DNA of 64,000 nt from NCBI GenBank assembly GCA_944323035.1, contig CALUQY010000010.1, forward strand, positions 1-64,000, read 5' to 3'. The notes below the pieces were generated by a model. That model had not been told where the DNA came from. It made no database searches and worked only from the letters and a program-made list of their open reading frames with translations. The position numbers and the translations under genes were made by a program. This document shows positions 6,129 through 16,300 of this stretch, piece by piece (the first letter of the stretch is position 1; every line of letters begins with the position of its first letter). Origin of the DNA: Candidatus Gastranaerophilales bacterium (GTDB taxonomy: Bacteria; Cyanobacteriota; Vampirovibrionia; Gastranaerophilales; Gastranaerophilaceae).

Positions 6129-6206
6129 GTAAACACTACTACCTTTTATATTATTTATAACTAACGCGCAAGAAAAAAATTGCGCATTGGAACTCATAAT
6201 GTAAAC

Positions 6207-6920
6207 TTAGATTACAAGCAGGAGTTTAATAATCCCGAGCGTTAACAGGCTCAAAACAACAAGCGCGCCCCACAACCCGATTTTAACCTTACGCTTGAGG
6301 GTAAAAAACGGCGCGGGATTGGATTTGGCAACGGTCGGATATTTGTCAAATTTGGATTTAGAAGGCTTACGTTTTGCAGGCAATTGCTGAACTTTTTTTC
6401 GCCGCGCAATTTCATCTTCTTTTGCCTGCATTTGAAGATATTTTTCTTTCAGGGTATTTTTATCCTTACTCCGCTTACCGGTTACAAGAAGCTCTTCGTC
6501 AAAAAGAAGCCGTGACACAGAAGCGTCCTGACCGTTTTTTGCCGAATAAAACATAACCGCCACCTCAAACGCCCGCTGCAAGCACTCCAATGCCTTTATT
6601 CCGTCCTTATCAACCGCACGCGTGTGCACTGACTGGTTTCCCGCTTTTTTGAGAAAATATAAATCGCTTATAAGTTCACGTTTTTCCGTACAATTTATTA
6701 GGTAATCGTCAAGGTTCGCAAGCATAGTATCAAACGTATCATTCGGCTGATAATTCCCGTTAAGAAGCTCACGGCAGACATTCTCCGCAAAACATCTGGT
6801 CTGCGTCATACACTGCTGAAAATATTCATCACGATAAAGCGCCTCCGCCTCTTTTGCAAGTTTAAAAATGTTGCGATTTATTTCTTTTATAAAGTAAAAA
6901 TTGCTTTCGTTCTTTTTCAT
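6207..6920 (-). CDS. DUF4145-like protein with C-terminal membrane anchor
   Basis: 237 residues. The N-terminal half (NFYFIKEINRNIFKLAKEAE, then RCFAENVCRELL and KKAGNQSVH) resembles the helical DUF4145 domain found at the N-terminus of some restriction subunits and as stand-alone proteins. A basic, low-complexity linker (about residues 150-210) follows, then one hydrophobic segment near 215-236 as a tail anchor. The domain would therefore face the cytoplasm. It lies downstream of plsY-waaA with a 200-base gap, so it is probably a separate unit. Function unknown. Confidence 0.6.
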   Translation of the reverse strand: MKKNESNFYFIKEINRNIFKLAKEAEALYRDEYFQQCMTQTRCFAENVCRELLNGNYQPNDTFDTMLANLDDYLINCTEKRELISDLYFLKKAGNQSVHTRAVDKDGIKALECLQRAFEVAVMFYSAKNGQDASVSRLLFDEELLVTGKRSKDKNTLKEKYLQMQAKEDEIARRKKVQQLPAKRKPSKSKFDKYPTVAKSNPAPFFTLKRKVKIGLWGALVVLSLLTLGIIKLLLVI

Positions 6921-6975
6921 AAAAACCCTGTTATATCAAGCCTTTTGCACGCCAATTGTAACAATTTCTTAATAT

Positions 6976-7095
6976 ATTTGCCATTTTGTTACATGAAATA
7001 AAAAGTTGTAGTATCATGCATGTACAACTATTCCAAAATCTCCTCCCAAGATTTTATGTATGAGTCCTCATGTCAGACATGGGACTTTTCTTTTT
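6976..7095 (+). ncRNA. Possible small RNA with C-rich loop
   Basis: In the gap between two minus-strand genes the plus strand shows hairpin AAAATC-TCCTCCCAA-GATTTT (7035-7055), whose loop is complementary to a Shine-Dalgarno sequence. It is followed by a terminator-like hairpin AGTCCTCATGTC/GACATGGGACT (about 7063-7085) with TTTCTTTTT. There is no open frame. A weak promoter TTGCAC-19-TAATAT precedes it. This is inferred from structure only. Confidence 0.35.
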
Positions 7096-12629: not shown

Positions 12630-13448
12630 CTAATCTTTAGTAATCATAAGTTTAGCGGCAATTCCGGTACCTATTCCGGCAAGGAGGTAAGTCATCCAGG
12701 CCAAAAGATAATTTTTCTTGAGAGCTTTAAGATTAGCTTTTGCACCAAGCGTTTCTTTTGCCGCTTTAATTCCGCGGATAGAAGCTGCGGCTTCCTCGAT
12801 AATCGTCGGCAAGAACGCACAAAAACCGATTGTACCGGCGTTGCGTTCCCAGAAGTTTTTCCGCCCGTCAGAACGTTCACCCGATGCCCGGTTCAGATAC
12901 GCGACTGCCATAGGCGCAAACATCCCGACAACTCGAAGTTTCTGTAAACCCTTCATTATTTTACTCTTTTCAAAGTTCGTGGCGTGTCCGAGTTCATGCA
13001 AAATCAAAGAGGGTTTGGATTTAGGTGCACAGGCAAAGTTGCCTTTATCAGTATAAAAAGCGTTTCTTCCGTCAGCAACAACATCAATAGAGTTTGCAAG
13101 TGACGGAAAATGCTGTTTCAGGGCAGATGTATTGGAATGGTCAAGGTAATAAATATCCGCACTCAAACCTTTATTCTTTTTCATTGCGTTCGCAACTTTT
13201 TCTACATCCTCGCGCGATGCAAACTCTTTACCTGCCATAAGCGCAGCCGAGCAAACACCCGAAAGTTTTTCTAAACCATACTGTGCAAGCCGCAATAAAC
13301 CAGCCGCCCCGACAGCAGTTGTAGCTGCAGAAAACTCATCTTGCGGCAGATCCAAATAAACACGCATAGAATGCTGCGGCGCATTTTGCGTCGGAACAAA
13401 CCGATAATCACGGTTATAAACATTCGAATTTAACGTTACATTATTCAT
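12630..13448 (-). CDS. Putative membrane zinc metallopeptidase
   Basis: 272 residues. HELGH at 151-155 is a zincin-type HExxH motif in a hydrophobic context (SLILHELGHATNF); a possible third ligand is the glutamate pair in TIIEEAAASIRG. Hydrophobic stretches occur around 40-55, 170-185 and at the C-terminus (LLAWMTYLLAGIGTGIAAKLM), so it is probably membrane-bound. The N-terminus (MNNVTLNSNVYNRDYRF) is taxon-specific. Substrate unknown. It lies alone between prfB and the ATPase gene. Confidence 0.65.
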   Translation of the reverse strand: MNNVTLNSNVYNRDYRFVPTQNAPQHSMRVYLDLPQDEFSAATTAVGAAGLLRLAQYGLEKLSGVCSAALMAGKEFASREDVEKVANAMKKNKGLSADIYYLDHSNTSALKQHFPSLANSIDVVADGRNAFYTDKGNFACAPKSKPSLILHELGHATNFEKSKIMKGLQKLRVVGMFAPMAVAYLNRASGERSDGRKNFWERNAGTIGFCAFLPTIIEEAAASIRGIKAAKETLGAKANLKALKKNYLLAWMTYLLAGIGTGIAAKLMITKD

Positions 13449-13502: not shown

Positions 13503-14489
13503 TTACAATCTTTTAAGCGTATCCCTGGAAAAGTAGTGCAAATCAGCTTTGTTAATACCAATTTCAATCGTTTTATCGACATCGCAGGAAGCGTCAATCT
13601 TTGCGCAAGCCTTATGCTCTCCGACAGAAAAATAAATAATCTTTTCAGAGCCTAAAAGTTCAACGGACTCAACCTCTGCGCTCAATTTAATATCCGTACC
13701 GCCAAACATTTTTTCCGGTCTGACGCCCAGAATAACATCCTCACGCCCGACAATAGACCCGTCAAGGAAATTCATAGGTAAAGAGCCGATAAAACCAGCG
13801 ACAAATGTATTTGCCGGTTTGTTGTAAACATTTTCAGGCGTGTCAAACTGCTGAATTTTACCCTTATCCAGCACACAAATTCTGTCACCCATTGTCAAGG
13901 CTTCCGTCTGATCGTGGGTTACATAGATAAATGTTGCCTGCAATTTTTCGTGTAATTTTTTGATTTCACTGCGCATCTGAACACGTAACTTCGCGTCAAG
14001 ATTAGAAAGCGGCTCATCCATTAAGAAAACTTTCGGATTTCTGACAATCGCCCTTCCGAGCGCAACCCGCTGGCGCTGCCCGCCCGAAAGCTCTTTCGGA
14101 CGCCGGTCAAGGTATTCTGTAAGGTTTAAAATTTCAGCGGCTTCTTTAACTTTTTCCTCAATAATATCTTTCTTAACCCCGCGCATTTTTAAACCAAACG
14201 CAATATTTTCCCTCACAGTCATGTGCGGATAAAGCGCGTAACTCTGAAAAACAAAGGCGATATCACGATCTTTCGGGGAAACATCATTTACGACCCTGCC
14301 GTCAATAGAAATTTCACCGGAAGTAATATTTTCAAGCCCCGCAATCATTCTTAAAATCGTGGATTTGCCGCAGCCGGAAGCCCCGACAAGCACAACAAAC
14401 TCACGATCTTTTACCTCTAAGCTCACCTCATCTATTACTCTTTTTTTGTCGTATATTTTTACAATATTATTTAAAACTACATTTCCCAT
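13503..14489 (-). CDS. ugpC: ABC transporter ATP-binding protein, MalK/UgpC/MsmX type
   Basis: 328 residues. Walker A GASGCGKST, Q-loop, signature LSGGQRQRVALGRAI, Walker B VFLMDEPLSNLDAK, H-loop VTHDQTEA and a C-terminal OB/TOBE regulatory domain with GVRPEKM. Such ATPases drive CUT1 sugar or glycerol-phosphate importers; no permease or binding protein is nearby, so it may serve several transporters, as MsmX does. The start is ATG 14489 (MGNVVLNNIVKIYD): the longer frame reads through a repeat fragment. The only ribosome-site-like sequence, GGAG ten bases upstream, is supplied by that repeat. Confidence 0.88.
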   Translation of the reverse strand: MGNVVLNNIVKIYDKKRVIDEVSLEVKDREFVVLVGASGCGKSTILRMIAGLENITSGEISIDGRVVNDVSPKDRDIAFVFQSYALYPHMTVRENIAFGLKMRGVKKDIIEEKVKEAAEILNLTEYLDRRPKELSGGQRQRVALGRAIVRNPKVFLMDEPLSNLDAKLRVQMRSEIKKLHEKLQATFIYVTHDQTEALTMGDRICVLDKGKIQQFDTPENVYNKPANTFVAGFIGSLPMNFLDGSIVGREDVILGVRPEKMFGGTDIKLSAEVESVELLGSEKIIYFSVGEHKACAKIDASCDVDKTIEIGINKADLHYFSRDTLKRL

Positions 14490-14532: not shown

Positions 14533-15648
14533 CTATTCCTTTTCAATCGGCAGAATTATTGTGATAACACAGCCCTGCATAACTTCAGAGCGGACTTCCC
14601 ACGAACCGTTAAGAGCTTTAACCGCATTGCGCGCAGACCCCAAACCAAATGTTCTGACCAAATTTTTTCTGTTTGAGCGCAGCATGTGAACATAAGGCTC
14701 TGTTAAATCCTCTAAATCAGATTCTGTATAGCCAACGCCTGTGTCAATAACAGAAATTTTCAGGTAAGAATTCTCTCTCTGCCCTTCCTTTACCGTAATC
14801 CCGCTTTTGCGAACTTCAACCAGATCCGGATAGGTCAGTTTAATATCAATAAGCCCCAAATCCGTAAGTTTGACAGAAGCTTCAATAATATTTTGCAGAA
14901 TAATCTTCAACATATTTTCATCAGAATAAATCGCACGTTTAGTAATCTCTTCCGCATCAAAATTAACCTTGATATTTTTCATCTCAAACAAATCTTCGTT
15001 TGCTCTGATGATATTTTGAATAGCGTTCACAACGTCAAAAACCTGCAAATTCAGCGGAACACACATTGATTCAGTTTGCGCGAATTCAATAAATTTATCA
15101 AGAAAATATAGGTAATCCACCGCATTTTTGCTGATAATTCTTGCATATTTTGCCTGTTTTTCGGTAAGTTCGCCGCCAAGCCCGTCAAGAAGCGCCTTTG
15201 AAAACCCCTGAATTGACTGGATAGGAGATTTTAATTCGGTCGCAATCTTGCAAATCATCTGGTTTTTATCTTTATTCAGCCTGCCGGATTTTTCGGCAGT
15301 AGAAAGAAAATTCGTAATAGCAGTAGTGTCGCTGATTGAAATATAATACTTGTCGTCATTTTCAACCGCGCTGAGTTCAACGAAAAACTCTTCGTCAGAA
15401 AGCGAAATCGCCGCAGTAGCCACCGGCGCATCTTTTGCAATAGAACTTTTTACAGAATCCAGCCCGTTAATAATTAATTCATCAAGAGTATGTTTTCTGA
15501 GTGCGCTTTTTGTTCCCTCAAATAAAGCAGCGGTGTTTTCGTTCAACCATAAAATATTGCCGCCTAAATCAGTAACAATAACGGCATTTGGCAAATGTTT
15601 AAGAATTAAATTCGGATTTAGTTTAGCTAGTAGATTAAAATTATTCAT
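14533..15648 (-). CDS. PAS-containing histidine kinase-like protein lacking the phospho-acceptor His
   Basis: 371 residues, soluble. PAS domain about 15-115 (VIVTDLGGNILWLNENTAALF), HisKA-like helix 125-195, HATPase_c 210-368. In the H-box the line ATELKSPI (136-143) stands where SHELRTPL is expected, so Thr137 replaces the histidine. In the N-box LQNIIEASVK (251-260) the second Asn is replaced by Ala, although G1 (DTGVG, 302-306) and a G2-like FGLGSARNAV remain. Autophosphorylation is therefore doubtful; a signalling or scaffold role by dimerisation is possible. No response regulator is adjacent. Confidence 0.75.
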   Translation of the reverse strand: MNNFNLLAKLNPNLILKHLPNAVIVTDLGGNILWLNENTAALFEGTKSALRKHTLDELIINGLDSVKSSIAKDAPVATAAISLSDEEFFVELSAVENDDKYYISISDTTAITNFLSTAEKSGRLNKDKNQMICKIATELKSPIQSIQGFSKALLDGLGGELTEKQAKYARIISKNAVDYLYFLDKFIEFAQTESMCVPLNLQVFDVVNAIQNIIRANEDLFEMKNIKVNFDAEEITKRAIYSDENMLKIILQNIIEASVKLTDLGLIDIKLTYPDLVEVRKSGITVKEGQRENSYLKISVIDTGVGYTESDLEDLTEPYVHMLRSNRKNLVRTFGLGSARNAVKALNGSWEVRSEVMQGCVITIILPIEKE

Positions 15649-15832: not shown

Positions 15833-15950
15833 ACAGGGGTGCCCGAAAGGTACAATGGCAAAAAGTCACAAAAGACTTGCATAACCCTTACGGGATACGG
15901 TTAATAACGCGGCCAGCCCCGAATGCGAGCAGTAGAGGATGAGGATAGAA
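15833..15950 (+). promoter_or_regulatory. Structured 5' leader, possible cis-regulatory RNA
   Basis: Upstream of the gene at 15953 lies about 115 bases with several mutually compatible helices: GTGCC-CGAAA-GGTAC, AAGTC-ACAAAA-GACTT, CCC-TTAC-GGG, and a possible outer pairing AGGGG...CCCC(G). It is GC-rich against AT-rich surroundings and has no open frame. I compared it by eye with the known riboswitch consensuses I remember (cobalamin, c-di-GMP-I, THF, ZTP, glutamine) and found no match. Confidence 0.35.
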
Positions 15951-15952
15951 CA

Positions 15953-16300
15953 ATGACAGAAATCAATCCAAACTTAAATCCGGTCCAACAGGTTAAACCT
16001 GCCACCGAACTAACCCCTAATCCGTCTGAAACTGAAACTGACGTTAAAGTTTCAGAAAATCAGATGAACGAATACAGTCTTGCTAATATGCCGCAAGCCC
16101 GTATCGGTCAATCACAGGTACATTTCGCAGGTAACATTAACGCTGATGTCCAACAATTTATGAACAACCCTGTACTCTGCCAGCAGGCTATGGAAATCGG
16201 AGATCTGGCTGAAAGCAAATATCAGGCTCAAGGCGACAGCGAAGCTCCTTTGAAAGCTCTTAACGTTGAAAAAGCTTTTTTAGATGAATTTGCAAAGTAG
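15953..16300 (+). CDS. Hypothetical protein
   Basis: 115 residues, acidic. ATG 15953 follows GAGGATGAGGA; the in-frame ATG at 15923 lies inside the leader and is less likely. The N-terminal half is proline/threonine/glutamate-rich and disordered; the sequence VHFAGN near the middle resembles the short [F/H]FxG patches in many proteins of this lineage, and the C-terminal half is helical (LCQQAMEIGDLAESKYQ). No signal peptide. No family recognised. A family B repeat follows the stop codon directly. Confidence 0.65.
   Translation: MTEINPNLNPVQQVKPATELTPNPSETETDVKVSENQMNEYSLANMPQARIGQSQVHFAGNINADVQQFMNNPVLCQQAMEIGDLAESKYQAQGDSEAPLKALNVEKAFLDEFAK

Follow-up and report, generated by a model that had tools for sequence, protein, structure and literature searches.

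The window, a 64,000-nucleotide stretch of DNA from a Candidatus Gastranaerophilales bacterium (gut Melainabacteria), carries on its reverse strand the gene of a histidine kinase homologue without its acceptor histidine and, directly downstream of it, the gene of a sugar-ABC ATPase. The features at this locus are:

14533..15648 (-): pseudo-histidine kinase gene of PAS-DHp-CA architecture (ORF of 371 aa, Pfam, AlphaFold2)
15328..15585 (-): PAS-like domain, residues 22-107 (AlphaFold2 secondary structure; Pfam PAS under cut-off; D107/T109 conservation)
15067..15324 (-): DHp domain, residues 109-194, the most conserved domain (Pfam, AlphaFold2)
15238..15240 (-): codon ACC of Thr137, phospho-acceptor position (alignment, codon comparison)
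14878..14880 (-): codon of Ala257, in place of the second N-box Asn (alignment)
14743..14745 (-): codon of Asp302, G1 box kept (D in 118/125 orthologues)
14638..14676 (-): former ATP lid/G2 box, residues 325-337, without its glycines and with R332 where Thr stood (alignment)
13503..14489 (-): UgpC/MsmK-type sugar-ABC ATPase, 328 aa, 43 nt downstream of the pseudokinase stop (ORF and family matches)

The pseudokinase gene is intact, as the preliminary description had it, with an ATG start and no internal stop in its 371 codons. Pfam HATPase_c covers residues 243-369 at 43.7 bits, over its cut-off, and HisKA (residues 128-192) marginally misses its own at 26.7 against 26.9 bits, the assignment being supported by the kinase-core fold. 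An AlphaFold2 model based on 57 rows (mean pLDDT 87.2, pTM 0.66) places helices at residues 109-154 (in three segments) and 163-194, followed by the CA domain. The mixed strands and helices predicted for residues 22-107 can be read as a PAS fold, in agreement with the PAS domain proposed earlier, with the Pfam PAS profile at 18.1 bits staying under its cut-off of 22.6. D107 and T109, at the PAS-DHp connection, are kept in 44/55 and 45/55 orthologues, respectively. Inspection by eye revealed no membrane segment, and neither Pfam nor AlphaFold2 gave a match to a receiver domain, the protein ending after the CA domain.

Two substitutions claimed for this protein were borne out by alignment: Thr137, in KIATELKSPIQSIQGFS, occupies the H-box position of the phospho-acceptor His, and in the N-box LQNIIEASVKLT N253 is retained while the second Asn position is occupied by Ala257. 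The further claim that the glycine motifs of the ATP site remain held in part. The G1 box, D302-T-G-V-G306, is retained, but the lid sequence RKNLVRTFGL aligns with KKYGGTGLGL of the two least changed orthologues (both of family f4), the lid G-x-G is gone, and the GLG readable nearby is out of register. In the AlphaFold2 model a helix at residues 330-345 passes through the former lid. Acceptor His, second N-box Asn and lid G-x-G, the marks of an active HisKA-type kinase, are all missing from the window protein, which combines the histidine kinase fold with a lineage-wide loss of the acceptor and a gene kept by selection, as a pseudo-histidine kinase should.

An orthologue-grade match was found in 55 of the 59 related genomes, equivalent to 55/58 of the order since G058 is the sole genome from outside it; matches of this grade were absent from G014, G028 and G039 within the order and from G058. 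None of the 55 orthologues has an internal stop. Together with 70 scan sequences (the best 80 of 319 matches, less 10 repeats) they form a set of 125 distinct orthologues, 115 of which lack His at position 137. The residues found there are Asn (77), Thr (12), Gly (12), His (10), Ser (8), Phe (2) and Gln, Leu, Pro and Ile (one each); Tyr, the acceptor-position residue of DivL, occurs in none of the 125. Conservation of Thr137 is thus a feature of the genus (7/7 orthologues) and not of the whole set (12/125). Because the seven genus rows encode this Thr by three different codons (ACC, ACT and ACA), chance, an alignment error, a sequencing error and a recent point mutation are ruled out. Orthologues bearing His, anticipated as the finding that would point to a recent mutation, do occur (10/125), but only two of them, L027 and L030 of family f4, combine it with a canonical N-box and lid. 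The remaining eight (L010, L124, L132, L144, L146, L155, L164 and L179) carry His on a degenerate ATP site and are unlikely to be active kinases, since lid glycines and second N-box Asn are both gone. In the window's genome 12 further HisKA proteins were found, and every one of them has its His. At the level of sequence, the conserved pseudokinase put forward in the preliminary description is therefore well supported by the 115/125 orthologues without His, by these 12 paralogues and by purifying selection.

Among scan matches bearing a Gastranaerophilus species name, the nearest listed was Candidatus Gastranaerophilus phascolarctosicola (94% identical). Two records titled Fusobacterium sp. (L107 and L134, 85% and 45% identity) also carry this Gastranaerophilales gene, so that their names look wrong. 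Searches by family yielded no f4, f7 or f2 genomes beyond those already used.

The gene is kept under purifying selection. Pairwise dN/dS within the genus ranges from 0.02 to 0.11 for 20 of 21 pairs (one was not computable), ratios that are rough because many dS values exceed 1, and the DHp domain had the lowest dN/dS in all three comparisons made. Mean column entropy is likewise lowest in DHp (1.30 bits for residues 121-195, as against 2.06 for PAS and 1.91 for CA). K167 and Y168 are invariant in all 125 orthologues, K164, F149 and I171 are kept in 124, and Q165, S150 and N175 in 123. The residue after position 137 is Glu or Asp in 121/125, and residue 141 is Ser, Thr or Asn in 117/125 (Ser in 99/125). 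G148 and F149, kept in 119/125 and 124/125, lie about 11 and 12 residues after the acceptor position; in EnvZ-like kinases the residues at about this distance from the His help to choose the response regulator.

A conserved tie to a sugar-ABC ATPase gene had not been foreseen. The downstream gene matches the UgpC subfamily (461.6 bits, cut-off 432), and an ATPase gene lies directly downstream of 106/125 orthologues, comprising 36/55 genome loci and 70/70 scan loci (from the best 80 of 319 matches). In 54 of these 106 there is an overlap of exactly 8 nt between the kinase stop and the ATPase start, the latter being extrapolated from the alignment. When 46 loci were compared gene by gene, 27 had the ATPase as the next downstream gene, a place that each other gene cluster took once at most. 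By family, the neighbour is present in 33/34 f1 and 3/3 f7 rows and missing from f2, f3, f4 and f6 (18 rows) and from the f1 genome L016, a total of 19, of which 16 have an ATPase orthologue elsewhere in the genome. L016 has lost the neighbour and retained the degenerate protein; adjacency is therefore not essential. Orthologues paired with the ATPase tend to be those without lid glycines: 14/19 unpaired orthologues have the lid G-x-G (four more keep one glycine) as opposed to 3/106 paired ones, all three of them the f7 rows, although these counts follow phylogeny and do not represent independent events. The former lid of paired orthologues carries R332 (95/106, against 1/19 unpaired), the unpaired ones having Thr at this position in 17/19. 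In the window's family the second N-box Asn and the lid glycines are mostly lost.

The ATPase probably powers sugar ABC importers. UgpA/UgpE-like permeases, which it may serve, are encoded on contigs C15 and C4 of the window's genome (best-scoring models, under their cut-offs), and the genome has no close second ATPase of the UgpC/MsmK kind, the next match being 42% identical over about 230 residues. Distance from the permeases and lack of a close second copy are reminiscent of the multitask ATPases MsmX and MsmK as described in PMC7658222, passages of which make no mention of a pseudokinase gene partner.

Further genes surround the pair. Downstream of the ATPase gene, at 12633-13448 (-), lies the gene of a 272-aa protein with an HELGH motif (HExxH, metallopeptidase-like) and hydrophobic C-terminal stretches, and at 15923-16297 (+), divergent from the pseudokinase, that of a 125-aa protein whose cluster occurs in 10/46 loci; neither has a match in Pfam or NCBIfam. 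Among f3 genomes, the gene of the sugar-ABC ATPase stands end to end with another gene (L212, L218) or, in L214, near a piece on the opposite strand that by eye resembles a kinase CA domain.

The His loss is old and lineage-wide. When nine paralogues served as the outgroup in a tree of 61 rows, the orthologues fell into one clade (support 96), and two changes between His and not-His sufficed. Orthologues outside the order were sought by running an f4 query against 60 genomes of the class (the window's own family contributing 11), and the matches listed included many from outside the order, a few of them of similar length. Eight of these were selected on length or coverage; each has His, and they all fell outside the orthologue clade, which in the resulting tree of 69 rows had a support of 99, with two changes still sufficient. 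A quick tree of all 125 rows required four changes between His and not-His, and 23 for the residue at 137 itself, which with tied ranks 17-21 of 75 DHp positions is a middling DHp site. Families cohere within the orthologue clade except for the two His-bearing canonical f4 rows, whose own pairing the tree leaves open; these were placed near the root, an early branching that is weakly supported, as the branch uniting all non-f4 rows had a support of 76 with the paralogue outgroup and 43 with the extra outgroup rows. Orthology is supported by an upstream gene of cluster c5, presumably rsmI, that is shared by two loci each of f2, f4 and f7.

A single loss from an ancestral His, the ancestral state resting on the outgroups, is the simplest reading. 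The likely course would lead from a canonical kinase through His loss to adjacency with the ATPase gene in f1 and f7 and finally to loss of the lid glycines in f1, an order of steps for which tree support is weak to moderate. Adjacency to the ATPase was either gained in f1 and f7 or lost elsewhere; f1 and f7 as one clade, implying a single gain, was not rejected (p-AU 0.404).

Structural comparison of the predicted model returned kinase cores: RetS (6dk7) as the top row (Z 22.1, 2.5 Å over 215; profile match E 2e-17), ZraS (Z 22.0), HK853 (Z about 20) and DivL (4q20; Z 19.9, 4.9 Å over 223; weak profile match E 7e-05). As RetS ties with the ordinary kinase ZraS, the structural match singles out no pseudokinases. 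RetS is a membrane hybrid protein that keeps its His and has C-terminal receiver domains, unlike the window protein, which has no receiver domain. In Pseudomonas, RetS is described as regulating the kinase GacS through heterodimers with it (PMC12189002). DivL, according to PMC4211667, binds ATP weakly, has neither kinase nor phosphatase activity and binds DivK~P. It shares with the window protein the PAS-DHp-CA order and the replacement of the acceptor His across a lineage, but has Tyr at this position, several PAS domains and a role in the alphaproteobacterial cell cycle (PMC4211667), whereas the family described here has one PAS domain, a drifting residue at 137 and an ABC ATPase neighbour, and belongs to a different phylum. 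A ChrS variant of Corynebacterium glutamicum is reported as a catalytically dead histidine kinase that affects signalling via a paralogous kinase (PMC9491836); this was a frameshift mutant of laboratory evolution, as opposed to a natural, lineage-wide family.

Candidate partners were sought among receivers and kinases. A receiver profile made from 13 of the genome's receivers was used to search the 587 ORFs of the 46 loci and found four receiver genes, three of them within two genes of the pseudokinase. In L053 (genome G023) a receiver-STAS gene at 6135-7037 (-), over both cut-offs with 54.6 and 36.7 bits, lies directly upstream on the same strand at about 50 nt from the pseudokinase; receiver-STAS, pseudokinase and ATPase genes may form one operon there, and the receiver-STAS protein is a possible partner of the G023 orthologue. 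NarL-type regulators lie two genes upstream on the same strand in L071 (74.5% to L086 of the window's genome) and two genes downstream on the opposite strand in L068 (67% to L087), and the receiver gene of L067 is eight genes away. Since the receivers near the pseudokinase in L053, L071 and L068 are different proteins, they represent a lead and not a pattern, and no common receiver partner emerges from gene neighbourhood. Two loci also have a gene of the kinase cluster close by, encoded on the opposite strand in both: one of 143 aa adjacent to the pseudokinase in L035 and one of 1479 aa two genes off in L073. Among the 12 paralogues, the HisKA kinase G000:C14:27653 (L097) comes closest to the family consensus in its DHp domain (35% identity, the others 12-27%), and its first DHp helix closely resembles that of the family (EFKTPLNSIIGFS against EFKSPLQSIIGFS); Pfam gave no GAF domain for this kinase. 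It is a possible partner of the pseudokinase by this resemblance, but only a lead because such DHp motifs are common in kinases.

We posit that the protein is a PAS-gated, kinase-dead protein-interaction switch like DivL or RetS, expressed together with a probable sugar-importer ATPase, and assign this reading a probability of about 0.5. The ancient loss of the acceptor, the careful retention of the gene and its tie to the ATPase gene suggest a switch rather than a kinase. More specifically, a PAS-DHp-CA histidine kinase would have become a pseudokinase for which autophosphorylation on the usual His is impossible. The PAS domain would sense a cytoplasmic signal, and the helix leading into the DHp bundle would relay it and set the conformation of the DHp surface. 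This surface could then dock a partner, either a receiver domain or one of the cell's own true kinases, with no phosphotransfer of its own. The role suggested in the preliminary description, passing on conformational signals or titrating partners, would fit such a switch. The kept PAS-DHp connection and the conserved DHp domain, set against a drifting acceptor, argue for signal-dependent docking as the function retained. In the window's family the pseudokinase would be made with, and often translationally coupled to, the UgpC/MsmK-type ATPase, and because this ATPase probably powers sugar ABC importers the output most likely concerns carbohydrate uptake. We infer the loss of kinase activity, the docking, the identity of the partner and the link to sugar uptake from these comparisons.

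Two other roles are possible but unlikely, and to the same degree. The protein could be a dedicated phosphatase that does not phosphorylate but dephosphorylates a response regulator by means of the acidic residue at 138 and the hydroxyl-bearing one at 141. An E/DxxT/N motif marks HisKA phosphatases, and the conservation of E/D at 138 (121/125) and S/T/N at 141 (117/125) while 137 drifts fits such a role, but residue 141 is mostly Ser (99/125) and not the Thr or Asn of that motif, and the window's family no longer has the lid glycines. DivL, moreover, has no phosphatase activity (PMC4211667). Alternatively, the pseudokinase could be a regulatory subunit that binds the co-made ATPase and adjusts how active it is in response to the PAS signal. 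The frequency and exclusiveness of the downstream position (106/125 orthologues, 27/46 loci), the exact 8-nt overlap (54/106) and the conserved new sequence in the former lid (R332) speak for such a subunit; gene adjacency, however, is no proof of binding, the 18 rows of f2, f3, f4 and f6 keep the orthologue without the neighbour (the ATPase being elsewhere in 16 of the 19 unpaired genomes), and f7 has the neighbour yet keeps the lid glycines. A fuller version, marginally more doubtful again, holds that the histidine kinase fold was recast as a PAS-gated ATPase subunit, the gene becoming coupled after loss of the acceptor and the former lid turning into a conserved contact surface. If true, a single sensor would, with no phosphotransfer, throttle the whole of sugar import in gut Melainabacteria.

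That the protein is still a kinase, phosphorylating another residue such as Thr137 or Tyr168, is improbable. Tyr168 is invariant (125/125), Thr137 is held throughout the genus (7/7), and lid glycines persist in 14/19 unpaired orthologues and in the three f7 rows; against this, the residue at 137 is Asn in 77/125, with Gly, Phe, Leu or Pro among the remainder, and second N-box Asn and lid glycines are mostly missing from the window's family. Least credible is a functionless remnant subject to neutral drift: the missing His, second Asn and lid glycines, together with the three of 58 order genomes (G014, G028, G039) without an orthologue-grade match would accord with decay, but a dN/dS of 0.02-0.11, orthologues in 55/58 genomes with no internal stop in any, and near-invariant DHp residues do not. 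The interaction switch remains our preferred reading.

Pseudo-histidine kinases as such are already known, although to our knowledge few bacterial ones have been studied, and among the matches listed there was no literature on an order-wide family with graded decay and an ABC-ATPase gene partner. One order appears to display graded stages, from a canonical kinase through His loss with an intact ATP site and coupling to an ABC ATPase to loss of the lid glycines, and what a kinase fold is kept for after catalysis thereby becomes testable. The family also points to a possible control of sugar uptake in gut Melainabacteria, a group known mostly from metagenomes.
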